Assembly: GCF_020379485.1 (NCBI RefSeq)
Contig: NW_026014710.1
Span: 205,353-269,352, forward strand
Length of the DNA: 64,000 nt
Source: Brassica napus
Lineage: Eukaryota > Streptophyta > Magnoliopsida > Brassicales > Brassicaceae
Direction: 5' to 3'
The translations under genes were made by a program, and so were the position numbers. The notes under the pieces were generated by a model. It was not told the origin of the DNA. It made no database searches and worked only from the letters and a program-made list of their open reading frames with translations. The first letter of the stretch is position 1. Each line of letters begins with the position of its first letter. Positions 222 through 62,793 of this stretch are shown one piece after another.

Positions 222-1067
222 GTCTTAATGCATATGATCCATGGTCAGTAACAAGTCTTTGCAAAGGCTTCTACAAAGGATCATCAACCGGACCAAGTCA
301 GTGGCGTGTCTAGGTAAAAGGCTGTTCAGAGCAGTCTTGGCGAGTGAGGAAGAAGGCTCTCCATCAATGCGGCTTCAATGAGAGGTGATTGAGGAGAAAC
401 TGATGAATCCATTCTGCCTTTCCAAGAAGTTGATGATGCCATGAAGATGGTGCATTGGCCGAGTTAGGAAACTCACAAAAACACAAGGGAAGTTCCCTTA
501 GACTTTTAAACTCTTTCTTCAATCTTTTTCATTCATCTTATTCATTGCTTGTGCTTGAAAAGATACTTAAGATGATCATGATTGAATTATGGGATTGTGT
601 GCATCAAGTGTGATGCAGGATATTCATTGTCTTGTTTTTGATAGGTTCTGATGCACCTTTGGGATAATGTATCAGGTACCATTGCTTGAGCCTCACTAAA
701 GGTGTTCCTGGTCATTTCCTAGCTTCTCTAAGGTGGCTGTGAAGTCTGTTGAGAAGGGGATATCCAAACCAGTTCTATAAAGAGGGCAAGCCGTGTGTGA
801 AGTGTTGATCAGCCTCACTGGTGTTTTGAAGATGATCTGGTTGTGTCCTAGCTTCTCTAGGATGGCTGTGAAGTCAGTTGAGAGGGGGAGACTTCAAACC
901 GGTTCCATGGAGAGGTGAAGCTGAAGTGTGAAGTGTGCGCAAAGCTGTGAAGAGTTGCTGCACCTAGTAGGCCGTGATCCAGAGCTTCTTGTGTCCAACC
1001 ACACTGGTTCTAAGGCACAAGAGCTCACTGGCCAATCCCTAGGCTTTGGAGAGCTCTACTCTTTTTC

Positions 1068-1178
1068 CCTTGCAAGGTTTTGTCCCAATGGGTTTTCCTT
1101 GTAAGGTTTTTAATGAGGGAGACTCTTCAGAGTTCCAAGCTTGGCTTAGGATCTCCTAAAGTCAAGCTTGAGGGGGAG
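1068..1178 (+). promoter_or_regulatory. Double hairpin and polypurine tract of K
   Basis: Stem 1 is CCTTGCAAGG (1068-1077) with CCTTGTAAGG (1097-1106), enclosing a CCC-AAT-GGG mini-hairpin. Stem 2 (1136-1170) pairs CAAGCTTGGCTTAGGA with TCCTAAAGTCAAGCTTG, with one bulge. AGGGGGAG (1171-1178) then abuts the LTR and is the predicted plus-strand primer. Confidence 0.7.
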
Positions 1179-5419: not shown

Positions 5420-5529
5420 CTCCCCCTCAAGCTTGACCATGTGGAACAAGTCAAGCTTGGAAACCATGAAGACCTCCCTCATTAAAAACCTCACCAAAGA
5501 AAACCCATTGGGATAAAACTTTGATGAGG
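5420..5529 (-). promoter_or_regulatory. Double hairpin and polypurine tract of H
   Basis: On the minus strand stem 1 is CCTCATCAAAG (5519-5529) with CTTTGGTGAGG (5489-5499), one G-U pair, enclosing CCC-AAT-GGG. Stem 2 is CAAGCTTGAC with GTCAAGCTTG (5428-5459). The purine tract AGGGGGAG abuts the LTR at 5420. Confidence 0.75.
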
Positions 5530-5561
5530 GAAAAAGAGTGGAGACTCCATGGTTAAGGGGC

Positions 5562-12963: not shown

Positions 12964-13000
12964 TCTATACACTCTCCTGATCATGTGATCTCTACTCTTT

Positions 13001-13110
13001 CCTCATTAAGGTTTTGTCCCAATGGGTTTTCCTTAATGAGGTTTTAATGAGGGAGATCTCATGGTTCTTCCAAGCTTGACTTGTTCCACATGGTCAAGCT
13101 TGAGGGGGAG
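13001..13110 (+). promoter_or_regulatory. Double hairpin and polypurine tract of I
   Basis: Stem 1 is CCTCATTAAGG (13001-13011) with CCTTAATGAGG (13031-13041), fully paired, enclosing CCC-AAT-GGG. Stem 2 is CAAGCTTGAC (13071-13080) with GTCAAGCTTG (13093-13102). AGGGGGAG follows at 13103-13110. Confidence 0.78.
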
Positions 13111-19330: not shown

Positions 19331-19442
19331 CTCCCCCTCAAGCTTGACTTTAGTTGATCCTAAGTCAAGCTTGGAACCTTGAAGAACTTCCTCATTAAAA
19401 ACCTCACCAAGGAAAACCCTTTGGGACAAAACCTTGATGAGG
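19331..19442 (-). promoter_or_regulatory. Double hairpin and polypurine tract of G1
   Basis: On the minus strand stem 1 is CCTCATCAAGG (19432-19442) with CCTTGGTGAGG (19402-19412), one wobble pair, enclosing CCC-AAA-GGG. Stem 2 is CAAGCTTGACTTAG with CTAAAGTCAAGCTTG (19339-19373, one bulge). AGGGGGAG follows. Confidence 0.75.
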
Positions 19443-19894
19443 GAAAAAGAGTAAAGTCTCCAAGGCCTAGGGATTGGCCAGTGTGTTTTTGTGCCTTACC
19501 AACAATGTAAGGGACACAAAGACTCTGGATCATGGCCCTCATGTGATGCAAGATAGAACCCACTCCTCTTGCTCATCATCAACACTTCTTGTACTCTTCT
19601 TTAGACAGATCTTGGTCTCTCCCCCTTTCTCACAACCTTCTTGTTGTGATCAAGTGCTCGGACTACCAGATCTTCTTTGATAGATACAAGCTGAGTCTTG
19701 GCTGCTTCTTCTTCATGAGTCACCACCATGTTACTGAAACCTTCATGACAGGATGCTTCAGACTGTAGTACCAATCACCTCACTCTAGAGGCCGCATTGG
19801 TGATTGCTTCTTCATCCTTCATTATGCTTCATAACTGATCTGCTCCTCTTCTTGAATAACCACCAAGTACTCTCAGATCATGTAAGCTTCAACA

Positions 19895-22121: not shown

Positions 22122-22245
22122 CTCCCCCTCAAGCTTGACTTTAGTTGATCCTAAGTCAAGCTTGGAACCTTGAAGAACTTCCTCATTAAAAACCTCACCA
22201 ACGAAAACCCTTTGGGACAAAACCTTGATGAGGGAAAAAGAGTAA
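22122..22245 (-). promoter_or_regulatory. Double hairpin and polypurine tract of G2
   Basis: The layout is as in G1: CCTTGATGAGG-type outer stem, CCC-AAA-GGG inner hairpin, CAAGCTTGACTTAG stem 2 and AGGGGGAG. One base differs in the arm (ACCAACG in place of ACCAAGG), which breaks one pair. Confidence 0.7.
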
Positions 22246-22660
22246 AGTCTCCAAGGCCTAGGGATTGGCCAGTGAGTCTTTGTGCCTTACCAACAATGTA
22301 AGGGACACAAAGACTCTGGATCATGGCCCTCATGTGATGCAAGATAGAACCCACTCTTCTTGCTCATCATCAACACTTCTTGTACTCTTCTTCAGACAGA
22401 TCTTGGTCTCTCCCCCTTTCACCTAACTTCTTGTTAGGTTGAAGTGTTTGGACACACCAGATCTTCCTTGATAGATACAAGTACCTGATACATCATTCCA
22501 CAAGTGTATCAGTCCCCAAGAGATAAACATATCATGAATGTATATAAAGAATAGATAAGGTTTACTCCCTTGTTTAGATGGTGAGGAGTGGCTGCTCTTC
22601 ACTAGCCACTTGAATCCCACACTTCTGAAACTCCATCTGATCAGTGAAGCCACTTCAACA

Positions 22661-28402: not shown

Positions 28403-28510
28403 CTCCCCCTCAAGCTTAGCTTTGTGAAAGCCTAAGCTTGGATAGCCATGAGATCTTCCTCATTAAAAACCTCACCAAGGAAAACCCATTGGGATAAAAC
28501 CTTGATGAGG
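28403..28510 (-). promoter_or_regulatory. Double hairpin and polypurine tract of D
   Basis: On the minus strand stem 1 is CCTCATCAAGG (28500-28510) with CCTTGGTGAGG (28470-28480), enclosing CCC-AAT-GGG. Stem 2 (28411-28440) is CAAGCTTAGGCTTT with AAAGCTAAGCTTG, where GAC/GTC of the other families is replaced by a matching TAG/CTA pair. AGGGGGAG follows. Confidence 0.78.
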
Positions 28511-28542
28511 GAAAAAGAGTAAAGACCTCACAGCCAAGGGGA

Positions 28543-34488: not shown

Positions 34489-34599
34489 CTCCCCCTCAAG
34501 CTTGACCATGTGGAACAAGTCAAGCTTGGAAGGATCATGAGCTCCTCCTCATTAAAAACCTCATCAAAGAAAACCCATTGGGACAAAACTCTGATGAGG
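34489..34599 (-). promoter_or_regulatory. Double hairpin and polypurine tract of C2
   Basis: On the minus strand stem 1 is CCTCATCAGAG (34589-34599) with CTTTGATGAGG (34559-34569), one G-U pair. Stem 2 spans 34497-34528. Confidence 0.78.
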
Positions 34600-34639
34600 G
34601 AAAAAGAGTAAGGACCTCATGATCAGGAGAGTGTATAGA

Positions 34640-44645: not shown

Positions 44646-44741
44646 GTTGAGATCGTTTGAATCCAGCAGAATATCTCACACCACTCAGATAATAAAGACC
44701 AGAACTCAAGAACACCAAGAACACTCAAGAACACTCAAGAA

Positions 44742-45659
44742 TATGATTTTTAAAGAGATCTCTACTCTGGTAGTATATGTGTGTGTATAAGCTTCAATGA
44801 AGAATGATTAGAGCTTGTTCTAGGTGATATAGAGAGAGAGATTGGTGAGAGTGTTTATGAGTGTATGAGAGACTTAAGAACAAAGATTAAGAGACTTAAG
44901 AGACTAGAGAGACTGAGAGAATAAGAGACTGAAGATTAGTGTTTCAGATTAGAGAAGGAGAGGGGAAACCCCCTTACTCACTTAAAGATTACAAAATGAT
45001 CATAAGAGGCTTATATATGCTCTTTACATTCCATAAACTTAAAACCTACATCTAATGGCTCATAAAAGACTAGAAGGATGGAGGGACGAGATGGAGAGTT
45101 GATCTGGTCATTATAGCCTCATCTGATTGGTTAAACTCTCTTTGGTGCCTGGTTGGTTAATTCAAATCTGGTCTAAGGGAAGGCTGGCTCCTTATTGGCT
45201 GGCTAAAGGCTCCCATGAACCTGCCCTTGTATCTGTTCAGATACAAGGTCACTATAGCTTCTTCTTTACAGCTCACACAGCTCATAGACAGCCTGTCTTG
45301 GCGCCAGCTTCTTCTTTTGTCTTCTTCTCTTAAGAGCCTCTTTTGTCTTCTTCTCTTAAGAGCTATCCTTTGCCCTGTTTTTGCACCAACTCCAAATAGG
45401 CTCAGATGGTCGAGTCTTGAACTTCCGGATCGGTCAGGTCCGTACATTCCGTACGGCCTCGCCCTAAGTTTGCACACTCGACCATTCTCCTCAACTATAT
45501 GCTTCTAAGTCCCTCCTAGACTTGGCCCTATCTTTGCACAACCATCAGATCACTTCTGGATACCAAGGGACACTCCTGAAGGTCTTGCCCTATCTTTGTA
45601 CCATCGGCCACCTTCTCCCAAACTCTTCCAACACCTTCTATCTTCTCTTCAGTTCAACA
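44742..45659 (-). repeat. 3' LTR of A1
   Basis: 918 bp, TGTTGAACTGAAGAG to AAAATCATA on the minus strand, with a TATATAAG box at about 45019-45026. Confidence 0.93.
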
Positions 45660-45770
45660 CTCCCCCTCAAGCTTGACTTTAGGAGATCCTAAGCCAAGCT
45701 TGGAACTCTGAAGAGTCTCCCTCATTAAAAACCTTACAAGGAAAACCCATTGGGACAAAACCTTGCAAGG
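45660..45770 (-). promoter_or_regulatory. Double hairpin and polypurine tract of A1
   Basis: On the minus strand stem 1 is CCTTGCAAGG (45761-45770) with CCTTGTAAGG (45732-45741), enclosing CCC-AAT-GGG. Stem 2 spans 45668-45702. Confidence 0.75.
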
Positions 45771-48700
45771 GAAAAAGAGTAGAGCTCTCCAAAGCCTAGG
45801 GATTGGCCAGTGAGCTCTTGTGCCTTAGAACCAATGTGGTTGGACACAAGAAGCTCTGGATCACGGCCTAACAGGTGCAGCAACTCTTCAAAGCTTTGCG
45901 CACACTTCACACTTCAGCTTCACCTCTTCATGGAACCGGTTTGAAGTCTCCCCCTCTCAACTGACTTCTCATCCATCTTAGAGAAGCTAGGACACGACCA
46001 GATCATCTTCAAAACACTAGTGAGGCTGATCAATACTTCACACTCGGCTTGCCCTCTTCATAGACTAGGTTTAGGGTTTCCCCCTCTCAACAGACTTCAC
46101 AGCCCCTTTAGAGAAGCTAGGAGATTCCCCGGAACTGTTTAATGAGGCTACAAGCAATGGTACCTGATTCATTATCCCAAAGGTGCATCAGTACCTATTA
46201 AAAACAAGAAAATGAATATCCTGCATCACACTTGATGCACACAATCCCATAATTCAATCATGATCATCTTAAGTATCTTTTCAAGCACAAGCAATGAATA
46301 AGATGAACGAAAAAGACTGAAGAAAGAGTTTAAAAAAGTCTAAGGGAACTTCCCTTGTGTTTTTGTGAGTTTTCTAACTCGGCCAATGCACCATCTTCAT
46401 GGCATCATCAACTTCTTGGAAGGGCAGAATGGATTCATCAGCTTCTCCTCAATCACCTCTCATTGAAGCCGCATTGATGGAGAGCTTTCTTCCTCACTTG
46501 CCAAGACTGCTCTGAACAGCCTCTTACCTAGACACGCCACTGACTTGGTCCGGTTGATGATCCTTTGTAGAAGCCTTTGCAAAGACTTGTTACTGACCAT
46601 GGATCATATGCATTAAGACTCCCCCTCAAGCTTAGAACCAAGACTAGAAGGAGCTAAGCTTGTGATGATCCTATGCATCTCCATGGTCTAATAACTATCA
46701 TCTTTCATGATAGCTTTCTTCTTGTGAGTTTACTCTCTTCCTTAACCAGGAACTAGGGTGTTTGAATCACCATAGAGAGTCTCACAAGTCACACCTCTCA
46801 TTGCATAATGACCCATGCTACACTTCCTGTAGACTAAGGACTAGATATGTCCAATGGTATTATGCAATGGCCATCTCTCATTGCATACTCAATCACACTA
46901 CACTTCCTGTAGGTTATGGACTAACATGTCCTTGTGATGATATGCAATGGCACAAGACCCTTGTCTTTACATTCTTGGTTGTTGGCGAGTTACATGTATC
47001 ACATTTCCTTGTGTACCTAACACCACCACAACTCAATGCAAGATCAGATCATCCCATTGGGATCAAACCAAGATTATCCATCCTGTTTGATCACCAATGC
47101 CACAATAATATGATACTTGAAACAGGCTAGACAATCAATACAATCAAGTAAAGACAATCAATTCAGTTTTTTTTTTTTTAAATGCAGCAATAGATGAATG
47201 CATTAGGTTACATACTAACTATATGAATGAAATATATTCAACCCAAATGAAACACAAGCCTAGATGATACTTATGCAATCAAGGCGACAAGAGTGACTCA
47301 ATTCATGCTTATGCTCACTAGTTTTATCAAAGTCAATGATTCAAATAGCTTAGACATACTTCTAAATGCTTATAAGACATCACTGATGGATTTAACTATG
47401 GCATAGCAACAATCAGAACTGGACTGAGTCAAGACAGCAGATTTCAATCTCTAACAATGACAATGCAAGTTCTATTTTTTTTTTTTTAAGTTCTCTAAAT
47501 GCAATGCAAGCTTACATCAGTACATTTGCAATTTAGGCTCATTTTTAAATGCAATAATACATGAATGCACAATCTTAAAAGCTTTAGCTATATGAATGCA
47601 ACAGGTTCAATCCATGAGCCATATCAAGGCTATGCACAACAGTTTCAATCAAAACCAATGATGCAAGCAACTTAGACAATTTCTAATTGATGCAAGACTT
47701 TCATCAATGGATTAAACATAGGCACTAGTATCAGATAACAACAGGATTGAACTTAGACAGTATGAGACGTGCTTATGTATGCAAAATAGCTTATCAATCA
47801 TGATGCAAGCAGCAGAGACATTCTACTCAATTCTACAACACATTCATGATGATTTCAAGCTATGGCAATACACAAGACAATGCAATGAACAGAACATGAG
47901 ATTTTGGGACTCTAGACATTACTTAATATCAATAAGACAATGCAGCAGCAAAACAATTTCAGTGCAATTAGCCTAGACATTCTACTAGAAGCTATGAACT
48001 CTTAATGGAATTAGGGAAAGCACATAGTATAATCAGGAGATAAACCTATCAAGACATATTAAGATAGATGAGATTAGGTTTACTCCCTTGGTTAAGATGA
48101 TGAGGACTGGTTCTCAAAGTTACCACCTGAATCCTCACTTCTTCTTCTTCTCTTATTGCAATCACCCTTCTGAATTTACCACCATGATGGAATGCTTGTG
48201 GATGCTTCAGCTACTACTTCTTCAATCACCTCACAATAGAAGCCGCCTTGATAGAGTAGCCTTCTTCTTCACAGAGCCAAGAGTGCTCTGTCTTAGTTTG
48301 AGCACCCTCTTGAATAGGCATGCCACTGCCTAGACCCGGTTGGCTTCTTCTTCAGTTACTTGCAATGGTAAGAGGAAGACCAGTGAGCTTCAAGTGAGTT
48401 TTACAACCATCTGCGCTTCACCCTTCTTGTGATAACTCTCCATTGCACACACAATGGGCACCATTCTTTCTCTTTCAACTCGGATTTGATGATGAACTAG
48501 GAACACCTTTTGTGAACCTGAAACATCACTCAAACTCTAGCAAAGATAAGACACAATTGCATTGGGATCAATCCTTGACTTCATCAAGTTTGATCACCAA
48601 TGTCTCAAGCTTTATAGCATTAGATAGAATCAAGACAATGTCAAGTTATTATCTATGCAAGCAACCATTCTCTAAATACTAAGCAAGACCTTATCAGATT

Positions 48701-49838
48701 CAAGTCAAAGTATTTAGGCAATTTTAAACACTCCTTAATATGCAACTTAGACTTTAATCTAAATGCAACAATCCAAGGCAGCAACAAGGCAGTATGCATT
48801 AATGTTAATCAGTTTCTAACTCATGAAAGCAAGTGTGATTAGATAATATAATCTATCATCTTAACAAGACAAGTTAATTTAGAACTGACATTAAGCATTT
48901 AACCATTTTCCATAGTATTGATGTCAAAACTTGATTAATAAATCATCAAGTTTGATTCCCAATATCACAAGCAATGCAACAGATAGACACAAGGCATTAT
49001 CAAGTTCTATTCTTTGCAAGCTAACTCTCTAAGTACATGCAAGATCCTACCAGATTCAAGACAAGTTACTTAGACACTTTTAAAGCTTCTTTACTCAGCA
49101 CTTTAGACATGAATCTAATGCTTCAATGTAAGACAGCCACAAGACTATATGCAACAGCTTTAAATTCAGTTTCAATCCATGTATGCAAGCAGATTCAATT
49201 AATCACACTAAGCATCACTATGAACTGGAGCTAAGCATATTAAGCACATTCAGTCACCAAACAAAGCTCTTAAAGTATCCTGGGACAGATTCTAAACATT
49301 TTAATTTATCAATCTTTAACAATCCTCAGGTTTTCAATCACACCACACATTATAACCAGTCAACAACACAAGCTTATTATCAAGAGGGTTTTAAACAATC
49401 GCTTACACAAGGAACCAGGTTGGTTCCTTAAACCTCCAAGGGGACTGGCCATGGCTTTTGTTGAATCTGAGAGTCTGGATAGTCACCCACCTCCTATTCC
49501 TTCAGTTCATGGCCACCTTCTTGTTTCTCCAACTCAAAGACTCCTCCTTTCTTCAAGTCTTCTAGGCGCCATCATCTTGACAGCTTTCATGATGAACCGG
49601 GTGAAGAAAGCTCTTGGAGGAGGCGCCTTGGATGAGGTTCGTGAGTCCTCTCCATACACTTCTGCTTCCAATGAGTTTCTCCATCAGTATAGACAGGAGA
49701 AAGGATGAGAGACACGCCCTTCAGTCTTCTTCTCATGGAGGAACTGAACTCGGATGGGAATGTCTTCAAGGGTTGGATTTGAGCTGAGGGTAGAGCTTGT
49801 GTTGTGCGGAAGCTACAGCTCAGGTTCTGATGAACCTG
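45771..49838. other. Non-coding interior of A1
   Basis: I find no gene. The stretch has poly-T runs (near 47168 and 47476), repeated phrases such as CACGCCACTG or CATGCCACTG (46500-46560 and 48300-48340), repeated TTTGATCACCAATG-type blocks (47085, 48585, 48945), and a block at 48510-49340 shared with G1 and G2. The longest ORF (122 aa at 46762) is not conserved in frame in A2, where a 13-base deletion lies. Confidence 0.65.
46622..46661 (-). repeat. Internal PPT-hairpin-like module in A1
   Basis: On the minus strand CAAGCTTAG and CTAAGCTTG form a stem and run into AGGGGGAGTC. It is the same as 54220-54263 in A2 and 177-221 in K. Confidence 0.6.
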
Positions 49839-49850
49839 GCTCTGATACCA
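49839..49850 (-). other. PBS of A1
   Basis: The minus strand reads TGGTATCAGAGCCAGGTT, abutting the LTR. Confidence 0.9.
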
Positions 49851-50125
49851 TATGATTTTTAAAGAGATCTCTACTCTGGTAGTATATGTGTGTGTATAAG
49901 CTTCAATGAAGAATGATTAGAGCTTGTTCTAGGTGATATAGAGAGAGAGATTGGTGAGAGTGTTTATGAGTGTATGAGAGACTTAAGAACAAAGATTAAG
50001 AGACTTAAGAGACTAGAGAGACTGAGAGAATAAGAGACTGAAGATTAGTGTTTCAGATTAGAGAAGGAGAGGGGAAACCCCCTTACTCACTTAAAGATTA
50101 CAAAATGATCATAAGAGGCTTATAT
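49851..50125 (-). repeat. 5' LTR of A1, 3'-terminal piece (R/U5 side)
   Basis: It matches 44742-45019 and is cut by A2 inside the TATATAAG box. The other piece is 62145-62793. Confidence 0.92.
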
Positions 50126-51043
50126 TGTTGAACTGAAGAGAAGATAGAAGGTGTTGGAAGAGTTTGGGAGAAGGTGGCCGATGGTACAAAGATAGGGCAA
50201 GACCTTCAGGAGTGTCCCTTGGTATCCAGAAGTGATCTGATGGTTGTGCAAAGATAGGGCCAAGTCTAGGAGGGACTTAGAAGCATATAGTTGAGGAGAA
50301 TGGTCGAGTGTGCAAACTTAGGGCGAGGCCGTACGGAACGTACGGACCTGACCGATCCGGAAGTTCAAGACTCGACCATCTGAGTCTATTTGAAGTTGGT
50401 GCAAAAATAGGGCAAAGGATAGCTCTTAAGAGAAGAAGACAAAAGAGGCTCTTAAGAGAAGAAGACAAAAGAAGAAGCTGGCGCCAAGACAGGCTGTCTA
50501 TGAGCTGTGTGAGCTGTAAAGAAGAAGCTATAGTGACCTTGTATCTGAACAGATACAAGGGCAGGTTCATGGGAGCCTTTAGCCAGCCAATAAGGAGCCA
50601 GCCTTCCCTTTGACCAGATTTGAATTAACCAACCAGGCACCAAAGAGAGTTTAACCAATCAGATGAGGCTATAATGACCAGATCAACTCTCCATCTCGTC
50701 CCTCCATCCTTCTAGTCTTTTATGAGCCATTAGATGTAGGTTTTAAGTTTATGGAATGTAAAGAGCATATATAAGCCTCTTATGATCATTTTGTAATCTT
50801 TAAGTGAGTAAGGGGGTTTCCCCTCTCCTTCTCTAATCTGAAACACTAATCTTCAGTCTCTTATTCTCTCAGTCTCTCTAGTCTCTTAAGTCTCTTAATC
50901 TTTGTTCTTAAGTCTCTCATACACTCATAAACACTCTCACCAATCTCTCTCTCTATATCACCTAGAACAAGCTCTAATCATTCTTCATTGAAGCTTATAC
51001 ACACACATATACTACCAGAGTAGAGATCTCTTTAAAAATCATA
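50126..51043 (+). repeat. 5' LTR of A2
   Basis: 918 bp. Four TGCAAANNTAGGGC-like motifs start at 50184 (GTACAAAGATAGGGC), 50246, 50310 and 50399. A TATATAAG box is at 50768-50775. Confidence 0.93.
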
Positions 51044-51055
51044 TGGTATCAGAGC
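51044..51055 (+). other. PBS of A2
   Basis: TGGTATCAGAGCCAGGTT follows the LTR with no gap. Confidence 0.9.
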
Positions 51056-54000
51056 CAGGTTCATCAGAACCTGAGCTGTAGCTTCCGCACAACACAAGCT
51101 CTACCCTCAGCTCAAATCCAACCCTTGAAGACATTCCCATCCGAGTTCAGTTCCTCCATGAGAAGAAGACTGAAGGGCGTGTCTCTCATCCTTTCTCCTG
51201 TCTATACTGATGGAGAAACTCATTGGAAGCAGAAGTGTATGGAGAGGACTCACGAACCTCATCCAAGGCGCCTCCTCCAAGAGCTTTCTTCACCCGGTTC
51301 ATCATGAAAGCTGTCAAGATGATGGCGCCTAGAAGACTTGAAGAAAGGAGGAGTCTTTGAGTTGGAGAAACAAGAAGGTGGCCATGAACTGAAGGAGTAG
51401 GAGGTGGGTGACTATCCAGACTCTCAGATTCAACAAAAGCCATGGCCAGTCCCCTTGGAGGTTTAAGGAACCAACCTGGTTCCTTGTGTAAGCGATTGTT
51501 TAAAACCCTCTTGATAATAAGCTTGTGTTGTTGACTGGTTATAATGTGTGGTGTGATTGAAAACCTGAGGATTGTTAAAGATTGATAAATTAAAATGTTT
51601 AGAATCTGTCCCAGGATACTTTAAGAGCTTTGTTTGGTGACTGAATGTGCTTAATATGCTTAGCTCCAGTTCATAGTGATGCTTAGTGTGATTAATTGAA
51701 TCTGCTTGCATACATGGATTGAAACTGAATTTAAAGCTGTTGCATATAGTCTTGTGGCTGTCTTACATTGAAGCATTAGATTCATGTCTAAAGTGCTGAG
51801 TAAAGAAGCTTTAAAAGTGTCTAAGTAACTTGTCTTGAATCTGGTAGGATCTTGCATGTACTTAGAGAGTTAGCTTGCAAAGAATAGAACTTGATAATGC
51901 CTTGTGTCTATCTGTTGCATTGCTTGTGATATTGGGAATCAAACTTGATGATTTATTAATCAAGTTTTGACATCAATACTATTGAAAATGGTTAAATGCT
52001 TAATGTCAGTTCTAAATTAACTTGTCTTGTTAAGATGATAGATTATATTATCTAATCACACTTGCTTTCATGAGTTAGAAACTGATTAACATTAATGCAT
52101 ACTGCCTTGTTGCTGCCTTGGATTGTTGCATTTAGATTAAAGTCTAAGTTGCATATTAAGGAGTGTTTAAAATTGCCTAAATACTTTGACTTGAATCTGA
52201 TAAGGTCTTGCTTAGTATTTAGAGAATGGTTGCTTGCATAGATAATAACTTGACATTGTCTTGATTCTATCTAATGCTATAAAGCTTGAGACATTGGTGA
52301 TCAAACTTGATGAAGTCAAGGATTGATCCCAATGCAATTGTGTCTTATCTTTGCTAGAGTTTGAGTGATGTTTCAGGTTCACAAAAGGTGTTCCTAGTTC
52401 ATCATCAAATCCGAGTTGAAAGAGAAAGAATGGTGCCCATTGTGTGTGCAATGGAGAGTTATCACAAGAAGGGTGAAGCGCAGATGGTTGTAAAACTCAC
52501 TTGAAGCTCACTGGTCTTCCTCTTACCATTGCAAGTAACTGAAGAAGAAGCCAACCGGGTCTAGGCAGTGGCATGCCTATTCAAGAGGGTGCTCAAACTA
52601 AGACAGAGCACTCTTGGCTCTGTGAAGAAGAAGGCTACTCTATCAAGGCGGCTTCTATTGTGAGGTGATTGAAGAAGTAGTAGCTGAAGCATCCACAAGC
52701 ATTCCATCATGGTGGTAAATTCAGAAGGGTGATTGCAATAAGAGAAGAAGAAGAAGTGAGGATTCAGGTGGTAACTTTGAGAACCAGTCCTCATCATCTT
52801 AACCAAGGGAGTAAACCTAATCTCATCTATCTTAATATGTCTTGATAGGTTTATCTCCTGATTATACGATGTGCTTTCCCTAATTCCATTAAGAGTTCAT
52901 AGCTTCTAGTAGAATGTCTAGGCTAATTGCACTGAAATTGTTTTGCTGCTGCATTGTCTTATTGATATTAAGTAATGTCTAGAGTCCCAAAATCTCATGT
53001 TCTGTTCATTGAATTGTCTTGTGTATTGCCATAGCTTGAAATCATCATGAATGTGTTGCAGAATTGAGTAGAATGTCTCTGCTGCTTGCATCATGATTGA
53101 TAAGCTATTTTGCATACATAAGCACGTCTCATACTGTCTAAGTTCAATCCTGTTGTTATCTGATACTAGTGCCTATGTTTAATCCATTGATGAAAGTCTT
53201 GCATCAATTAGAAATTGTCTAAGTTGCTTGCATCATTGGTTTTGATTGAAACTGTTGTGCATAGCCTTGATATGGCTCATGGATTGAACCTGTTGCATTC
53301 ATATAGCTAAAGCTTTTAAGATTGTGCATTCATGTATTATTGCATTTAAAAATGAGCCTAAATTGCAAATGTACTGATGTAAGCTTGCATTGCATTTAGA
53401 GAACTTAAAAAAAAAAATAGAACTTGCATTGTCATTGTTAGAGATTGAAATCTGCTGTCTTGACTCAGTCCAGTTCTGATTGTTGCTATGCCATAGTTAA
53501 ATCCATCAGTGATGTCTTATAAGCATTTAGAAGTATGTCTAAGCTATTTGAATCATTGACTTTGATAAAACTAGTGAGCATAAGCATGAATTGAGTCACT
53601 CTTGTCGCCTTGATTGCATAAGTATCATCTATGCTTGTTTTTCATTTGGGTTGAATCTATTTCATTCATATAGTTAGTATGTAACCTAATGCATTCATCT
53701 ATTGCTGCATTTAAAAAAAAAAAAAAACTGAATTGATTGTCTTTACTTGATTGTATTGATTGTCTAGCCTGTTTCAAGTATCATATTATTGTGGCATTGG
53801 TGATCAAACAGGATGGATAATCTTGGTTTGATCCCAATGGGATGATCTGATCTTGCATTGAGTTGTGGTGGTGTTAGGTACACAAGGAAATGTGATACAT
53901 GTAACTCGCCAACAAAGACAAGGGTCTTGTGCCATTGCATATCATCACAAGGACATGTTAGTCCATAACCTACAGGAAGTGTAGTGTGATTGAGTATGCA

Positions 54001-54818
54001 ATGAGAGATGGCCATTGCATAATACCATTGGACATATCTAGTCCTTAGTCTACAGGAAGTGTAGCATGGGTCATTATGCAATGAGAGGTGTGACTTGTGA
54101 GACTCTCTATGGTGATTCAAACACCCTAGTTCCTGGTTAAGGAAGAGAGTAAACTCACAAGAAGAAAGCTATCATGAAAGATGATAGTTATTAGACCATG
54201 GAGATGCATAGGATCATCACAAGCTTAGCTCCTTCTAGTCTCGGTTCTAAGCTTGAGGGGGAGTCTTAATGCATATGATCCATGGTCAGTAACAAGTCTT
54301 TGCAAAGGCTTCTACAAAGGATCATCAACCGGACCAAGTCAGTGGCGTGTCTAGGTAAGAGGCTGTTCAGAGCAGTCTTGGCAAGTGAGGAAGAAAGCTC
54401 TCCATCAATGCGGCTTCAATGAGAGGTGATTGAGGAGAAGCTGATGAATCCATTCTGCCCTTCCAAGAAGTTGATGATGCCATGAAGATGGTGCATTGGC
54501 CGAGTTAGAAAACTCACAAAAACACAAGGGAAGTTCCCTTAGACTTTTTTAAACTCTTTCTTCAATCTTTTTCATTCATCTTATTCATTGCTTGTGCTTG
54601 AAAAGATACTTAAGATGATCATGATTGAATTATGGGATTGTGTGCATCAAGTGTGATGCAGGATATTCATTTTCTTGTTTTTAATAGGTACTGATGCACC
54701 TTTGGGATAATGAATCAGGTACCATTGCTTGTAGCCTCATTAAACAGTTCCGGGGAATCTCCTAGCTTCTCTAAAGGGGCTGTGAAGTCTGTTGAGAGGG
54801 GGAGACCCTAAACCTAGT
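51056..54818. other. Non-coding interior of A2, 5' part
   Basis: This is an inverted copy of the A1 interior with a few small indels. I found no gene. It is cut by C1 at 54823 and resumes at 60829. Confidence 0.65.
54220..54263 (+). repeat. Internal PPT-hairpin-like module in A2
   Basis: CAAGCTTAG and CTAAGCTTG form a stem, followed by GAGGGGGAGTC. Confidence 0.6.
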
Positions 54819-54823
54819 CTATG

Positions 54824-55423
54824 TGTTGAGATGAGCTGAGGAATATGAGGAGAGTTGTTCAGGGTTGAAGAGGTTGTGATGTGGAGAAGAGGAGAAGGAT
54901 TGGCCTTAGGGAGAACCGTCCGTACCGGTCCGTACAGGTCCGTACCATGGCCGTACGGCCGTACAGACGGTATCGACCATGCGGTAAAGAAATGTTACCG
55001 CGAGAAGAAGTTCACGGTCTGATCATGTTTTGCCTTGACCAAAGAAGACATATGACCGTTTATGGATAGAGGAAGAGCGTCTCAACAGGCTGGCACAGGC
55101 TGGAAGGATAAGGTTCACTTTTAGCATAGTGACCACGCGTGTGGAGAGGCTCATTGGTCCGGTTCAAATTAAAGGCTCCCTTAGCTTTGACCTCACATGC
55201 TTAGTCTCTTCTTAAACCCTAGTATCACACTCCTATATATTGTAAACACTCTCTCATTAATAAAATTATGCGGATTGTGTCTCTCTCTCTCTAGTCTCTC
55301 TCTTGTTCATCATGGATCATACTTAATCTCTCCATTTCATTCACAATCGCTTCTAATCTTCTCTTAATCTCTTACCAAATCTCTCTTAATCTCTCAATAC
55401 CTATTCTACTCTCTAAAATCTCA
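54824..55423 (+). repeat. 5' LTR of C1
   Basis: TGTTGAGATGAGCTG to TAAAATCTCA. A CGTAC cluster lies at 54919-54964, a TATA box (CTATATAT) at 55233-55240 and AATAAA at 55259-55264. Confidence 0.95.
55233..55240 (+). promoter_or_regulatory. TATA box of the C1 5' LTR
   Basis: CTATATAT lies 190 bases before the LTR end and just upstream of AATAAA, as expected for a U3/R boundary. The same site is in the 3' LTR (60633-60640). Confidence 0.6.
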
Positions 55424-55435
55424 TGGTATCAGAGC
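55424..55435 (+). other. PBS of C1
   Basis: TGGTATCAGAGCCAGGTT directly follows the LTR. Confidence 0.92.
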
Positions 55436-55515
55436 CAGGTTGGCTTTGGTATTGAGAGATCCTTGTTCCTTTCTTTACATTTGCGAGTTTGTTCTTGTGT
55501 GATAAAGAAGAGGAA

Positions 55516-58500
55516 ATGGAGACGACCAACTTTAGCAAACTGGTGACGGTTCCGGTTGCACTGAAGGGAGGCTCGAACTACTTGATGTGGTCCCAGTTAG
55601 TGAGGACTACCATTGGAAGGCTAGGGCTGTGGAACCACATCACAGATGATGGTCCGGAGCCAGTGGCCAAAGAAGATGAAGAAGAAGGCGACGGGAAGAC
55701 TCTTGCGGTAGCTGAAGCAAAGAGATGGGTCCAAGAGGATTTGATGGTGCTGTCTGTGCTCCATGCCTCTCTGGAGCTCCCCATACTCGAAGCTTACGTG
55801 CACTTTGAGACTCCTAAGCGCCTTTGGGACATGCTCCATAAGAGGTATGGAAACAAGTCCAACATAAGTCGGGTGTTTGATCTAAAGCAAACCATCAGCG
55901 TCTTGAGGCAAGATGGAGAAGATCTCACCAAGCACATGGGGAAGTTTGGAGCTTTGTGGTCCGAACTTGAGAGTCTTAGACCCAACACAACTGATGAAGA
56001 ATCGCTCATTGAAAGGAGAGAGCAAGATCAGGTGTTTGGGCTATTGATGACTCTAGATGAAAGCTACCAGGATGTGATCAAGCATATCCTGAGATCACCT
56101 ACTCTCCCATCCATGGAGGAGGTATGCGCACAACTTCAGAAGGAGGAAGGCTCTCTTGGGTTGTTTGGAGGCAAGAAGGGAATGTCCACGGCTCATAAAG
56201 CAGAAGAGGCGCAAGCAAACAAGGCAGCGTACCGTGGAGATGGAAGGAAGTATGAGAAGTATGAAGGAAGCTGTGAGCATTGCAAGCGGCAGGGGCATAA
56301 GAAGAGTCAGTGCTGGATCCTACATCCACACCTCAGGCCGAGCAAGTTCAACAAGGATAGAGAAGCTAAGGCTCACCTTTCTGCTGAAGCAAGTGGTGCC
56401 GGCTCATCAGGGGCTAGTCCAAATGTCAAGGCGGGTGAAAGTGAAGGCAGAGCTCTAACTTCTCAGGAGGTGATCACCAAGGCTGACTTTGAGGCATTCA
56501 TCCGAGCCCTCAAGGAGTCTGGTAAAGTGCTAGGCAACACTCTTGGATACTCATACTCTGCTCATACATTACCTAGTATCTCTGATAAGCTGTTAGACAT
56601 TTTTAAAACCTCATGTACTGCCACTGCTCATACTAGCATAACTGATAGATTGTTAGGAGTAGTTAAGAGCCTGAAAGCTGAAAATGAAACATCTAGAATC
56701 AATACTGGTAGGAGCTTGCATAAACCATTGATAATTGATTCTGGTGCATCTCATCACATGATTAGTGATAACAATCTGATAAAAGACATAGAACCTGCCC
56801 TTGGACATGTTATGATTGCAAATGGAGATAGAATTCCCATTAGAGGCATTGGTAAACTGAACTTGTTTAATAAGGATTCAAAAGCTTTTTACATGCCTGA
56901 GTTCACCTCTAATCTTTTATCAGTTAAGAAATGCACTACTGATCTTCAATGCAATGTTATTTTCAGTCCTAATGATGTTAAGTTTCAGGATATTAAGAGC
57001 AGTAAGTTGATTGGGCAAGGAGCAACCAAGGGGGATCTTTACATGATTGAAGACCTTGCACCTATTTCTAGTTCTTGTTTCTCGTTTAGTTCTGTTTCTT
57101 CCTTAAGTACTGATGCTCTGTGGCATGCTAGGCTAGGACATCCACATGTTAGGGCTTTAAGCATTATGTTACCAGGTGTCATGTTTAAAAATAATGATTG
57201 TGAGGCATGTATTTTGGGCAAACATTGTAAGACTGTTTTTCAGAAATCATCTACTCTTTATGCAAACTGCTTTGATTTAATTCACTCTGATGTTTGGACG
57301 GCACCTTGCTTATCTAGGGATGATTACAAGTATTATGTCACATTCATTGATGAAAAATCCAAATACACCTGGTTAACATTGATTAAAACTAAAGATAGGG
57401 TCCTTGATGCATTTAAAAATTTTCAAGCCTATGTGACTAACCAATATCATGCCAAGATTAAGATTTTCAGGTCTGATAATGGTGGGGAGTATACTGGGCA
57501 TGCATTTCGTGATCACCTTGCTCAACATGGGATTCTTCACCAGACTAGCTGCCCATACACTCCACAGCAGAATGGAGTTGCGGAAAGGAAGAACAGACAT
57601 CTCATGGAGGTGTCCCGGTCCATGATGTTCCACAAAGGGGTTCCCAAGAGGTATTGGAGTGATGCTGTGATGACTGCGTGCTATCTGATCAACAGGATAC
57701 CAACCAGGATCTTGGCAGATCAATCTCCATTTGAGGTACTCAACAAGAGCAGGCCAGTCTTGGATCACCTGAGGACCTTTGGATGCGTGTGTTATGTTCT
57801 TGTACCAGGCGAGCAGAGAAACAAACTAGAAGCAAAGAGCACCAAGGCTATGATGATTGGGTATTCCACTTCACAGAAGGGATACAAATGCTATGATCCT
57901 ACAGCTAGGAGAGTCCTAGTGTCAAGGGATGTCAGATTCATGGAAGACAAAGGATACTATGATGAGCAGACATGGGAAGACTTGGAGGATCTCTCCCAGC
58001 CATCAGAAAGAGCTGCTTGCTTGAGAAACATCCTAGAGGGGCTCGGAATTGGAGTGTCCCAGGATCAGAGTAGGCGTCCAGAACCTACTCCAACTGCAGC
58101 AGAAGAACCATCCCACTTTGCACATGAGGGGGGAAGTGAATCAGTATCTGAACTAGAGGACCAAGGCTTAGAAGAGGCCGGTGAGCTAGGAAACAGAGGA
58201 ACTGATTCTCCTGTCCAAAGTGGAGAAGGATCAGCAAGGGGAGAACTGAATGAAGAAGATCAGAGACAAGGAGAGGCTAGAGCTGAAGCTGAAGAACAGA
58301 CTGAAGCAGTGACTCCACAAGTAGAAGAAGAACAAGAGATGGCGCAAGAAGGGCCAGTGTTGAGAAGGAGTACAAGGCTGAGAAAGGATCCTTCCAGTTG
58401 GGTAAACACGAGAGTGTACTACAATGCCCAAGCTGTGAAGCATCCTACTCAGGCCGTGTGTTCCTTTGCTCAATATCCAGAAGCACATTGTGCATTTATG

Positions 58501-60072
58501 GTAAACTTAGATGAGAATCACATTCCAAGAAGCTATGAAGAGGCAATGGAAGATAAGGAATGGAAGGAATCAGTAGGAGCTGAGGCAGGAGCTATGATAA
58601 AGAATGACACATGGTATGAGAGTGAACTACCAAAAGGGAAGAAGGCTGTGTCTAGTAGATGGATCTTTACAGTCAAGTACAAGGCTGATGGGTCGATTGA
58701 GAGGAAGAAGACTAGACTGGTAGCAAGAGGGTTCACTCAGACTTATGGAGAAGACTACATTGACACATTTGCTCCAGTTGCAAAGCTTCACACCATTCGA
58801 ATAGTCCTATCAGTGGCTACTAACCTTGGGTGGGATCTTTGGCAAATGGATGTTAAGAATGCATTTCTCCAAGGAGAGTTAGAAGATGAAGTTTACATGC
58901 TACCACCTCCGGGCCTAGAAGGGATGGTGAAACCAGGGAATGTGCTGAGATTGAAGAAGGCCATCTATGGGTTAAAGCAATCACCAAGGGCCTGGTATCA
59001 CAAGCTGAGTACAACTCTAAATGGAAGAGGCTTCAGGAAATCAGAGCTTGATCACACTCTCTTCACTCTTACTACACCTGCAGGCATTGTTGTGCTTCTT
59101 GTATATGTGGATGACATAGTTATCACAGGCAGTGATAAGGTGGGAATCAAGGAGACCAAGGAGTTTCTGAAATCTGTGTTTGACATCAAAGACTTGGGAG
59201 AAATGAAGTACTTCCTTGGAATTGAGCTGTGCAGATCAGAAGAAGGGTTGTTCATCTCACAAAGGAAGTATATCTTGGATCTGTTGAAGGAGGCTGGTGC
59301 GTATGGAGGAAAGACAGCCAAGATGCCCATGGAGGATGGGTATAAAGCTCCACGTGAGGGGGAGCTAGAAGATAGTAAGGTATTTCATGATCCAAAGCTA
59401 TACAGGAAGCTTGTGGGGAAGCTGATCTATCTAACCATCACCAGGCCAGACATCTGTTTTGCTGTGAACCAAGTGAGTCAGCATATGCAAGCTCCAAGAG
59501 AGCATCACTGGCGCATGGTAGAAAGAGTTCTCATGTATCTGAATGGAACTCAAGGGCTTGGTATATGGATGGGTTGTAACGGGAGCACTGAAGCAGTGGG
59601 ATATTGTGATGCAGATTGGGCTGGAGACAGAACAGATAGAAGATCTACAACCGGCTATTGCACATTCATTGGTGGAAACATGGTTACTTGGAAGAGTAAG
59701 AAGCAGAAGGTGGTGTCATGCTCAAGTGCCGAGGCTGAGTATAGAGCAATGCTAAAGCTCACAAATGAGTTGGTATGGATTAAAGGAATACTGAAGCACT
59801 TGGAGATTGAGCAAGCAACACCAATGACCATGCACTGTGACAATCAAGCAGCCATTCACATAGCCACAAACTCGGTGTTCCATGAAAGAACCAAGCATAT
59901 TGAAGTGGACTGTCATAAAGTGAGGCAGATGATAGTCTTGGGAGTGATACTGCCGTGCTACACAAGGAGTGAGGATCAGTTGGCAGATGTATTCACTAAG
60001 GCGGCTAGGCAAAAGACAATGGAGTCAATTCACATAAGGTTGGGACTCCTTGATCTTTCGCCTAAGGGCTGA
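55516..60072 (+). CDS. C1 gag-pol polyprotein, intact Ty1/copia
   Basis: 1518 residues from the ATG at 55516 (the frame is open for nine codons upstream but without an ATG). Order and key residues: gag domain (LKGGSNYLMWSQLVRTT near 16-32), CCHC knuckle C253, C256, H261, C266; protease D408 in DSGASHH; integrase finger H537, H542, C562, C565 and DDE core D592, D654, E690; an acidic low-complexity linker near 830-945; reverse transcriptase with DVKNAFLQ near 1112 and YVDD at 1197-1200; RNase H with D1365, E1406 and D1442. All domains needed for an autonomous cycle are present, with no stop or frameshift. Protease would have to cut the single polyprotein, as in other plant copia elements. Transcription would start in the 5' LTR. 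Activity is inferred, not shown. Confidence 0.95.
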   Translation: METTNFSKLVTVPVALKGGSNYLMWSQLVRTTIGRLGLWNHITDDGPEPVAKEDEEEGDGKTLAVAEAKRWVQEDLMVLSVLHASLELPILEAYVHFETPKRLWDMLHKRYGNKSNISRVFDLKQTISVLRQDGEDLTKHMGKFGALWSELESLRPNTTDEESLIERREQDQVFGLLMTLDESYQDVIKHILRSPTLPSMEEVCAQLQKEEGSLGLFGGKKGMSTAHKAEEAQANKAAYRGDGRKYEKYEGSCEHCKRQGHKKSQCWILHPHLRPSKFNKDREAKAHLSAEASGAGSSGASPNVKAGESEGRALTSQEVITKADFEAFIRALKESGKVLGNTLGYSYSAHTLPSISDKLLDIFKTSCTATAHTSITDRLLGVVKSLKAENETSRINTGRSLHKPLIIDSGASHHMISDNNLIKDIEPALGHVMIANGDRIPIRGIGKLNLFNKDSKAFYMPEFTSNLLSVKKCTTDLQCNVIFSPNDVKFQDIKSSKLIGQGATKGDLYMIEDLAPISSSCFSFSSVSSLSTDALWHARLGHPHVRALSIMLPGVMFKNNDCEACILGKHCKTVFQKSSTLYANCFDLIHSDVWTAPCLSRDDYKYYVTFIDEKSKYTWLTLIKTKDRVLDAFKNFQAYVTNQYHAKIKIFRSDNGGEYTGHAFRDHLAQHGILHQTSCPYTPQQNGVAERKNRHLMEVSRSMMFHKGVPKRYWSDAVMTACYLINRIPTRILADQSPFEVLNKSRPVLDHLRTFGCVCYVLVPGEQRNKLEAKSTKAMMIGYSTSQKGYKCYDPTARRVLVSRDVRFMEDKGYYDEQTWEDLEDLSQPSERAACLRNILEGLGIGVSQDQSRRPEPTPTAAEEPSHFAHEGGSESVSELEDQGLEEAGELGNRGTDSPVQSGEGSARGELNEEDQRQGEARAEAEEQTEAVTPQVEEEQEMAQEGPVLRRSTRLRKDPSSWVNTRVYYNAQAVKHPTQAVCSFAQYPEAHCAFMVNLDENHIPRSYEEAMEDKEWKESVGAEAGAMIKNDTWYESELPKGKKAVSSRWIFTVKYKADGSIERKKTRLVARGFTQTYGEDYIDTFAPVAKLHTIRIVLSVATNLGWDLWQMDVKNAFLQGELEDEVYMLPPPGLEGMVKPGNVLRLKKAIYGLKQSPRAWYHKLSTTLNGRGFRKSELDHTLFTLTTPAGIVVLLVYVDDIVITGSDKVGIKETKEFLKSVFDIKDLGEMKYFLGIELCRSEEGLFISQRKYILDLLKEAGAYGGKTAKMPMEDGYKAPREGELEDSKVFHDPKLYRKLVGKLIYLTITRPDICFAVNQVSQHMQAPREHHWRMVERVLMYLNGTQGLGIWMGCNGSTEAVGYCDADWAGDRTDRRSTTGYCTFIGGNMVTWKSKKQKVVSCSSAEAEYRAMLKLTNELVWIKGILKHLEIEQATPMTMHCDNQAAIHIATNSVFHERTKHIEVDCHKVRQMIVLGVILPCYTRSEDQLADVFTKAARQKTMESIHIRLGLLDLSPKG

Positions 60073-60112
60073 TCTATACACTCTCCTGATCATGAGGTCC
60101 TTACTCTTTTTC

Positions 60113-60223
60113 CCTCATCAGAGTTTTGTCCCAATGGGTTTTCTTTGATGAGGTTTTTAATGAGGAGGAGCTCATGATCCTTCCAAGCTTGACTTGTTCC
60201 ACATGGTCAAGCTTGAGGGGGAG
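60113..60223 (+). promoter_or_regulatory. Double hairpin and polypurine tract of C1
   Basis: Stem 1 is CCTCATCAGAG (60113-60123) with CTTTGATGAGG (60143-60153), enclosing CCC-AAT-GGG. Stem 2 is CAAGCTTGAC (60184-60193) with GTCAAGCTTG (60206-60215). AGGGGGAG ends at 60223. Confidence 0.8.
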
Positions 60224-60823
60224 TGTTGAGATGAGCTGAGGAATATGAGGAGAGTTGTTCAGGGTTGAAGAGGTTGTGATGTGGAGAAGAGGAGAAGGAT
60301 TGGCCTTAGGGAGAACCGTCCGTACCGGTCCGTACAGGTCCGTACCATGGCCGTACGGCCGTACAGACGGTATCGACCATGCGGTAAAGAAATGTTACCG
60401 CGAGAAGAAGTTCACGGTCTGATCATGTTTTGCCTTGACCAAAGAAGACATATGACCGTTTATGGATAGAGGAAGAGCGTCTCAACAGGCTGGCACAGGC
60501 TGGAAGGATAAGGTTCACTTTTAGCATAGTGACCACGCGTGTGGAGAGGCTCATTGGTCCGGTTCAAATTAAAGGCTCCCTTAGCTTTGACCTCACATGC
60601 TTAGTCTCTTCTTAAACCCTAGTATCACACTCCTATATATTGTAAACACTCTCTCATTAATAAAATTATGCGGATTGTGTCTCTCTCTCTCTAGTCTCTC
60701 TCTTGTTCATCATGGATCATACTTAATCTCTCCATTTCATTCACAATCGCTTCTAATCTTCTCTTAATCTCTTACCAAATCTCTCTTAATCTCTCAATAC
60801 CTATTCTACTCTCTAAAATCTCA
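60224..60823 (+). repeat. 3' LTR of C1
   Basis: 600 bp, identical by eye to 54824-55423. Confidence 0.95.
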
Positions 60824-60828
60824 CTATG

Positions 60829-61116
60829 AAGAGGGCAAGCCGAGTGTGAAGTATTGATCAGCCTCACTAGTGTTTTGAAGATGATCTGGTCGTGTCCTAG
60901 CTTCTCTAAGATGGCTGAGAAGTCAGTTGAGAGGGGGAGACTTCAAACCGGTTCCATGAAGAGGTGAAGCTGAAGTGTGAAGTGTGCGCAAAGCTGTGAA
61001 GAGTTGCTGCACCTGTTAGGCCGTGATCCAGAGCTTCTTGTGTCCAACCACATTGGTTCTAAGGCACAAGAGCTCACTGGCCAATCCCTAGGCTTTGGAG
61101 AGCTCTACTCTTTTTC
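60829..61116. other. A2 interior, 3' part
   Basis: It continues the A2 interior after C1 and matches 776-1067 of K and the complement of 45771-46055 in A1. No gene was seen. Confidence 0.7.
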
Positions 61117-61227
61117 CCTTGCAAGGTTTTGTCCCAATGGGTTTTCCTTGTAAGGTTTTTAATGAGGGAGACTCTTCAGAGTTCCAAGCTTGGCTTAGGA
61201 TCTCCTAAAGTCAAGCTTGAGGGGGAG
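61117..61227 (+). promoter_or_regulatory. Double hairpin and polypurine tract of A2
   Basis: Stem 1 is CCTTGCAAGG (61117-61126) with CCTTGTAAGG (61146-61155). Stem 2 spans 61185-61219. The purine tract ends at 61227. Confidence 0.75.
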
Positions 61228-62144
61228 TGTTGAACTGAAGAGAAGATAGAAGGTGTTGGAAGAGTTTGGGAGAAGGTGGCCGATGGTACAAAGATAGGGC
61301 AAGACCTTCAGGAGTGTCCCTTGGTGTCCAGAAGTGATCTGATGGTTGTGCAAAGATAGGGCCAAGTCTAGGAGGGACTTAGAAGCATATAGTTGAGGAG
61401 AATGGTCGAGTGTGCAAACTTAGGGCGAGGCCGTACGGAACGTACGGACCTGACCGATCCGGAAGTTCAAGACTCGACCATCTGAGTCTATTTGAAGTTG
61501 GTGCAAAAATAGGGCAAAGGATAGCTCTTAAGAGAAGAAGACAAAAGAGGCTCTTAAGAGAAGAAGACAAAAGAAGAAGCTGGCGCCAAGACAGGCTGTC
61601 TATGAGCTGTGTGAGCTGTAAAGAAGAAGCTATAGTGACCTTGTATCTGAACAGATACAAGGGCAGGTTCATGGGAGCCTTTAGCCAGCCAATAAGGAGC
61701 CAGCCTTCCCTTTGACCAGATTTGAATTAACCAACCAGGCACCAAAGAGAGTTTAACCAATCAGATGAGGCTATAATGACCAGATCAACTCTCCATCTCG
61801 TCCCTCCATCCTTCTAGTCTTTTATGAGCCATTAGATGTAGGTTTTAAGTTTATGGAATGTAAAGAGCATATATAAGCCTCTTATGATCATTTTGTAATC
61901 TTTAAGTGAGTAAGGGGGTTTCCCCTCTCCTTCTCTAATCTGAAACACTAATCTTCAGTCTCTTATTCTCTCAGTCTCTCTAGTCTCTTAAGTCTTAATC
62001 TTTGTTCTTAAGTCTTCTCATACACTCATAAACACTCTCACCAATCTCTCTCTCTATATCACCTAGAACAAGCTCTAATCATTCTTCATTGAAGCTTATA
62101 CACACACATATACTACCAGAGTAGAGATCTCTTTAAAAATCATA
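61228..62144 (+). repeat. 3' LTR of A2
   Basis: About 917 bp, matching 50126-51043 with a few differences (GGTGTCC for GGTATCC, and small indels near 61985-62015). Confidence 0.92.
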
Positions 62145-62793
62145 TTATATATGCTCTTTACATTCCATAAACTTAAAACCTACATCTAATGGCTCATAAA
62201 AGACTAGAAGGATGGAGGGACGAGATGGAGAGTTGATCTGGTCATTATAGCCTCATCTGATTGGTTAAACTCTCTTTGGTGCCTGGTTGGTTAATTCAAA
62301 TCTGGTCAAAGGGAAGGCTGGCTCCTTATTGGCTGGCTAAAGGCTCCCATGAACCTGCCCTTGTATCTGTTCAGATACAAGGTCACTATAGCTTCTTCTT
62401 TACAGCTCACACAGCTCATAGACAGCCTGTCTTGGCGCCAGCTTCTTCTTTTGTCTTCTTCTCTTAAGAGCCTCTTTTGTCTTCTTCTCTTAAGAGCTAT
62501 CCTTTGCCCTATTTTTTCACCAACTCCAAATAGGCTCAGATGGTCGAGTCTTGAACTTCCGGATCGGTCAGGTCCGTACATTCCGTACGGCCTCGCCCTA
62601 AGTTTGCACACTCGACCATTCTCCTCAACTATATGCTTCTAAGTCCCTCCTAGACTTGGCCCTATCTTTGCACAACCATCAGATCACTTCTGGATACCAA
62701 GGGACACTCCTGAAGGTCTTGCCCTATCTTTGTACCATCGGCCACCTTCTCCCAAACTCTTCCAACACCTTCTATCTTCTCTTCAGTTCAACA
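62145..62793 (-). repeat. 5' LTR of A1, 5'-terminal piece (U3 side)
   Basis: This is the remainder of the A1 LTR after the A2 insertion, matching 45020-45659. It includes the duplicated target bases. It is followed by AAGAA and the F leader. Confidence 0.92.

Follow-up and report, generated by a model that had tools for sequence, protein, structure and literature searches.

A probable double-domain ENE hairpin and an adjoining PPT stem at the 3' end of coding and non-coding LTR element families in Brassica napus

The window, as we call the whole stretch of 64,000 nucleotides of Brassica napus DNA analyzed here, contains the copia element F (54824..60823, forward strand), which has identical 600-bp LTRs, a 5-bp target duplication (CTATG), and an open frame at 55489-60072 with Gag, integrase, and reverse transcriptase domains. 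Its pol stop codon (60070-60072) is followed by a 92-base hairpin (60088..60179, +), a second stem, the PPT AGGGGGAG (60216..60223, +), and, directly after it, the 3' LTR from 60224. The hairpin opens with an outer stem, in which 14 of the 15 positions of the 5' arm (60088..60102) pair with the 3' arm (60165..60179). Above it, CUC (60104-60106) stands opposite GAG (60162-60164) and borders the lower internal loop, where the U5 tract at 60107..60111, just after CUC, faces the U5 tract at 60154..60158 plus AAU (60159-60161), which separates the latter tract from GAG. Stem 1 pairs at 11 of 11 positions (60113..60123 with 60143..60153) and carries the upper loop and cap, UUUU-GU-CCC-AAU-GGG-UUUU (60124..60142), in which U4 faces U4. 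Stem 2, with its CAAGCTTG arms, occupies 60184..60215, its last base adjoining the PPT. Stem arms were placed by folding, the lower U tracts by a descriptor, and the upper loop by the core pattern, and the letters were checked. The preliminary description had recognized stem 1 and its CCC/GGG cap; however, stem 1 is only the middle of the hairpin in F, and the outer stem of about 15 bp and the U-rich internal loops were absent from that account. Likewise, the interval given there covers stem 1 to the PPT but starts inside the hairpin, without the outer 5' arm and the lower 5' U tract. Of the parts added here, the outer stem varies more than any other helix and has the largest number of compensated pairs, and the loops are the constant part of the module.

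As had been proposed, the module is present upstream of the 3' LTR in eleven elements of the window. The core pattern TTTTGTCCCAWWGGGTTTT, with up to three mismatches allowed, has 11 matches, all at these elements, against 0.05 expected by chance; none of 100 shuffled windows reached 11 matches, and AGGGGGAG lies downstream of the module in 11 of 11 copies. A covariance model built from seven window sequences, with copy I left out, locates the double-loop hairpin on the forward strand in copies K (1050..1126, 90.1 bits), I (12986..13060, 84.8 bits), and A2 (61099..61175, 90.1 bits), and on the reverse strand in copies C (5469..5547, 106.8 bits), C2 (15264..15342, 99.9 bits), G1 (19382..19460, 106.1 bits), G2 (22173..22251, 102.3 bits), D (28450..28528, 107.3 bits), H (34539..34617, 103.2 bits), and A1 (45712..45788, 90.1 bits). 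Copy I was thus recovered by a model from which it was absent. A double-ENE descriptor, written after the module had been seen, matched 10 of the 11 copies and no other site in the window, whereas 50 shuffles gave no double match and a mean of 0.04 single matches; copy I escapes it because its 5' U tract has three bases. The lower loop of copy I (U3 against U4) is shorter on both sides, as though loop lengths were matched. In the stretches L011-L035, all 34 descriptor matches are module copies. The stem 1 arm pairs quoted earlier do occur in the window copies, but CCTCATCAAAG/CTTTGATGAGG is that of the copy at 15295, F and H having CCTCATCAGAG. One stem 1 pair is broken in the G copy at 22204 (CGTTGG), and the modules of K and the two A copies are identical in the alignment.

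The elements that carry the module fall into coding and non-coding sets. The frame was read whole for F only, of which H is a near-identical twin (99.97% identity over 6,003 bp), and the two are therefore counted as one observation. The coding status of C, C2, and I comes from open reverse-transcriptase pieces, and that of D from about 600 bp of similarity to other coding elements only. Families A (with its member K) and G are taken as non-coding because their longest stop-free stretches are short: 109 residues in sense and 144 in antisense for the interior of A1, where the scan enters an LTR fragment at the far end, and 146 and 120 residues, respectively, for G2. The interiors of F and H start with TGGTATCAGAGC; the same motif in G spans the LTR end, and in the A family GGTATCAGAGC adjoins the LTR. 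The two A elements at 44741-62146 are about 99% alike and lie in inverted order; F has inserted into one of them and splits it. The LTRs and interiors had been described as unrelated or strongly diverged, which holds between coding and non-coding families: in a self-comparison at 1e-10, where some short matches were left without element assignment, these share mainly the module, over about 130-170 bp at 79-85% identity. Thus, the module is common to both sets, as had been stated. Within each set, however, there is kinship: the alignable interior portions of C, D, F/H, and I have a similarity of about 69-92%, and A is related to G through the LTR plus module (about 74%) and one interior stretch (83.5%).

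The covariance-model search suggested with the preliminary description finds copies well beyond the window in the same genome. In the 997-Mb assembly, 8,942 sites match the core 19-mer, compared to five for a reversed control pattern. We cut out 60 stretches from the 100 places listed, and the model matches all 60, the weakest being the broken copy L080 (21.7 bits), which is also the only one of the 60 not to show four U tracts. The stem 1 arms of these outside copies vary widely, for example CCTATCTTTGG/CCAAAGATAGG, CCTTGATTGG/CCAATCAAGG, and CCTTGTCGGG/CCCGATAAGG. In the 200-kb flank, the model gave 35 copies at 84.8 bits or more and nine matches at 23.3 bits or less; the core pattern and the model search, in which U tracts and cap are not demanded, each gave 35 copies. 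These copies, in the flank G000:C828 5353-205352 (L011-L030), amount to about one per 5.7 kb, the contig being dense with such elements. The sequence upstream of the hairpin was inspected in four of the 60 outside stretches (L096, L097, L098, and L099). L098 resembles the C-terminal part of F (30.6% identity over 186 aligned residues); a stop codon precedes its core by about 70 bases, and it reaches no Pfam family at E ≤ 0.1. The other three have no match to that part of F. In L099, a MuDR-type DNA-binding domain (1-294, +; PF03108, E 5e-8) precedes the hairpin by a few hundred bases; the hairpin may belong to a MULE or to a neighboring element. Two core-pattern matches on viral contigs, neither with a hairpin of this kind, were taken as chance.

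It had been claimed that both stems covary and that the RNA fold is selected. We compared the pairing of each family's own arms with that of arms exchanged between families, a swap that treats related families as independent. Exchanged arms paired as well as the own arms in 0 of 20000 permutations for the outer stem, 1 of 20000 for stem 1 (0 of 20000 with genome-wide copies), and 90 of 20000 for stem 2. Kinship enters in a tree-aware simulation in which each branch keeps its changes while the columns are reassigned. For 20 distinct modules in an alignment not fitted to the structure, 14 pairs are doubly changed against a simulated maximum of nine, the pairing is 0.93 against at most 0.86, and the observed pairing and doubly changed cells were reached in none of 200 simulations. 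When the helices are taken separately, the observed numbers of doubly changed pairs, doubly changed cells, and pairing were reached in 1, 2, and 0 of 2000 simulations for the outer stem, in 255, 0, and 0 for stem 1, and in 795, 104, and 71 for stem 2, the last being borderline. Genome-wide, stem 1 in 68 anchored rows pairs at 0.845 against at most 0.635 and has 134 doubly changed cells against at most 100 (0 of 500 simulations), with an unexceptional number of doubly changed pairs (187 of 500); this test leans against structure because anchoring puts some families out of register.

Tests of single pairs at E ≤ 0.05 gave zero or one significant pair for the 20 modules, depending on the null, and none for the 68 anchored rows, and we therefore added a model-fitted alignment of 68 distinct rows drawn from 67 sources (the window, six of the 20 flank stretches, and 60 short outside stretches), which, being fitted to the structure, leans towards it. 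There, 96.2% of cells are paired, 13 of 21 pairs are changed on both sides, and the covariation score is 0.420 against at most 0.108 when slid. On the tree, with L080 and the antisense match at 15264 left out, doubly changed cells number 198 against at most 124 and the pairing is 0.96 against at most 0.81 (0 of 500 simulations), while the number of doubly changed pairs is again unexceptional (37 of 500). Two single pairs are significant in this alignment, of which 7-81 belongs to the structure given and 4-84 is paired in one analysis only. The fold is under selection, as judged from the arm swap and from the pairing and doubly changed cells on the tree; the power for single pairs is low. Set against the phylogenetic expectation that the preliminary description had named as its yardstick, the results are divided: pairing and doubly changed cells of the whole alignments surpass all simulations, but in the two genome-wide alignments the number of doubly changed pairs does not. 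The covariation claimed earlier accordingly stands for stem 1 and extends to the outer stem, but for stem 2 it is only suggestive and unproven. It might be argued instead that one 3' end spread among these elements recently, by descent or recombination, and that its fold has no present function. Such an origin would fit the many near-identical copies, F and H among them, the borderline result for stem 2, and the scarcity of significant single pairs, but we consider it very improbable in view of the tree-aware result for the outer stem, the genome-wide pairing above the simulated maximum, and stems that change while the U tracts stay fixed.

This fixity is pronounced. In the 20 rows there are no changes in 18 U-tract columns compared to 103 in 74 stem columns. 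The lower U tracts, which were no requirement of the search pattern, have U in 259 of 259 and 320 of 322 aligned cells among 66 distinct sequences; their columns change 0.22 times on average, compared to 3.74 times for stem columns. The upper U tracts and CCC/GGG are fixed in the 60 outside rows because the exact core pattern chose those rows. All four tracts are found in 77 of the 78 distinct modules parsed, the upper tracts being demanded by the search pattern and the lower ones accepted from three T on the 5' side and four on the 3' side, with L080 as the one module dropped; one further module set, from which L025 (PPT beyond reach) and the two viral-contig matches were left out, keeps 53 copies and 24 distinct modules. 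G-C pairs border the loops in most rows of the model-fitted alignment: pair 12-75 is C-G in 64 of 68 rows, the outer pair of stem 1 C-G in 62, its inner pair G-C in 58, and the cap pair C-G in all 68, although some of these rows were chosen by a pattern that demands the cap.

A 2016 article by Tycowski (Cell Rep 15:1266) reportedly presents ENEs as RNA-stability elements of plant transposons. In the Arabidopsis copia element Evade (Copia93), the ENE consists of four U-rich tracts arranged as internal loops between the ORF and the 3' LTR and binds the poly(A) tail as a triple helix; it melts in two phases with A20, requires the U tracts and the flanking G-C pairs, and when deleted leaves lower RNA stability and copy number (PMC12501189, in the part of the paper available). 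We propose that the hairpin of the module is most likely a double-domain ENE, because its four U tracts, two loops, G-C borders, and place between stop codon and LTR match that anatomy; the two are likened by the anatomy described in the available part of that text. An Rfam search of window positions 58000-62000 returned no match at E ≤ 1, and a literature search by motif letters returned unrelated papers only. The same source, as far as it is available, treats Evade as the sole retroelement with an ENE among the many transposons that ddm1 mutants of Arabidopsis transcribe, whereas the module occurs in several families of one genome, some of them non-coding, and has a second hairpin against the PPT. 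It also counts about 200 ENE motifs, most of them from plants and fungi and strongly tied to LTR retrotransposons (Tycowski 2016, via the available part of PMC12501189), which would be the same kind of element as the module. For the rice hAT transposon TWIFB1, a double-domain ENE and its structure with poly(A)28 are reported (PMC10855403 and PMC11625349, available in part); by that description it likewise has two ENE domains in one plant-transposon RNA, but it is a DNA transposon, unlike the copia elements with the module. Double ENEs are also named in a meeting report. The preliminary description knew of no earlier account of such a module, but two-loop ENEs of plant transposons were already described, at least in the available part of PMC12501189. 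Among the literature matches listed, which covered few subscription papers, there is no account of a composite of ENE and PPT hairpin and none of an ENE in non-coding LTR families.

Stem 2 behaves as a separate unit. In 293 kb there are 112 sites like GAGGGGGAGT, of which 56 have the AAGCTTG arm, 43 with the ENE and 13 without it. The upstream arm pairs at 9 of 9 positions in 42 of the 43 and at 8 of 9 in the remaining one. Of the 13, one is truncated by the stretch end, and 12 are assigned by their flanks to internal sites of non-coding families, where 8 or 9 of the 9 pairs are kept. Internal second PPTs (AGGGGGAG) with the CAAGCTT hairpin and no ENE occur in the window in the A family (215-228, +; 46613-46626, -; 54256-54269, +) and the G family (19889-19902, -; 22655-22668, -); the distance from these five to the downstream 3' PPT is 539-959 bases when the F insertion in A2 is discounted. 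Several other ENE families place a different stem beside the PPT: of 10 further ENE copies picked by hand, eight hold the PPT within the loop of a repeat that extends into the LTR (-13.2 to -22.8 kcal/mol), and their upstream hairpin is weak (-2.5 to -8.6 kcal/mol). In five window families, both arms of stem 2 are upstream of the PPT (-14.0 to -20.9 kcal/mol), and LTR-side pairing is found too (-13.7 to -20.1 kcal/mol, computed with no shuffle control and with F not used). The ENE and the PPT-side stem are separable, given the 12 internal sites without an ENE and the 8 of 10 ENE copies with a different stem.

In Sireviruses, multiple PPTs and an inverted repeat around the PPT/3' LTR junction are described, and a role in primer formation was proposed for this repeat of copia elements (PMC2829016, in the part available). 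The module shares with them the PPT octamer AGGGGGAG, an immediately adjoining stem, and upstream PPT copies; in contrast, the right arm of the Sirevirus repeat is inside the LTR with the PPT in the loop, whereas both arms of stem 2 are upstream, and the upstream PPTs of Sireviruses are without the repeat, whereas those of A and G keep the hairpin, all as far as the available part of that paper describes. Such a precedent and the near-complete pairing at the 43 sites might suggest that the module in its entirety serves plus-strand priming by presenting the PPT; however, the 12 internal hairpin-PPT sites without an ENE and the hand-picked ENE copies with the PPT in a loop and a weak upstream hairpin speak against it, and priming would give no evident reason for fixed U tracts; we find it quite unlikely. 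Since stem 2 goes with the PPT, a part in priming is possible for stem 2 alone, which most likely helps to define the plus-strand primer, a point we put forward less firmly than the ENE. A further sequence, GAGGGGGAG, lies inside the reverse transcriptase frame at 59356 + (F, 859 bases upstream of the 3' PPT), 35356 - (H), 12248 + (I), 16072 - (C2), and 6278 - (C). It is kept at 32 of 32 sites located through a neighboring peptide, a count that takes in near-identical copies. Across the 163 codons of 21 copies picked by this motif, no other run of three codons keeps both residue and third position invariant; the sequence may possibly be a central PPT.

The results do not support the proposal of the preliminary description that the module is a novel packaging, strand-transfer, or priming signal, the anatomy being that of a described RNA-stability element. 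Packaging or dimerization of genomic RNA deserves separate mention: a signal that the coding families' Gag recognizes, and that non-coding families keep for this reason, would account for a module common to families that otherwise share little, and CAAGCTTG in stem 2 is self-complementary. Nevertheless, the constant part of the module is its U tracts, stem 2 differs across ENE families, and in Ty1 such signals are assigned to the 5' end (PMC5454406, in the part available), which leaves this explanation a slender chance. Instead, the module is very probably a double-domain ENE within the element's 3' UTR, joined to a stem 2 that likely helps to define the plus-strand primer. By analogy with Evade, the two U-rich internal loops between G-C-closed stems would take the poly(A) tail as U-A-U base triples; the clamped 3' end would be hidden from deadenylases and protected from decay, and the amount of full-length RNA would rise, leaving more for translation and reverse transcription and perhaps a gain in transposition. 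Stem 2, whose last base adjoins the PPT, would then help to set the start of the plus strand.

More tentatively, and in our view less likely than not, the ENE and the PPT hairpin could make up a portable cassette at the 3' end, to which the sequence common to coding and non-coding families is nearly confined, with the internal hairpin-PPTs as extra plus-strand starts. If so, the cassette together with PBS and LTRs would be the minimum for the stabilization and copying of a non-coding element and its mobilization by a coding partner. The ENE core occurs at thousands of places in this genome, and the four U tracts are present in 59 of the 60 examined outside the contig and in the 11 window copies, in coding and non-coding families. 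If the Evade mechanism applies, tail protection would be a standard rather than an exceptional feature of such elements here, and the non-coding families would allow a test of their requirements in cis.
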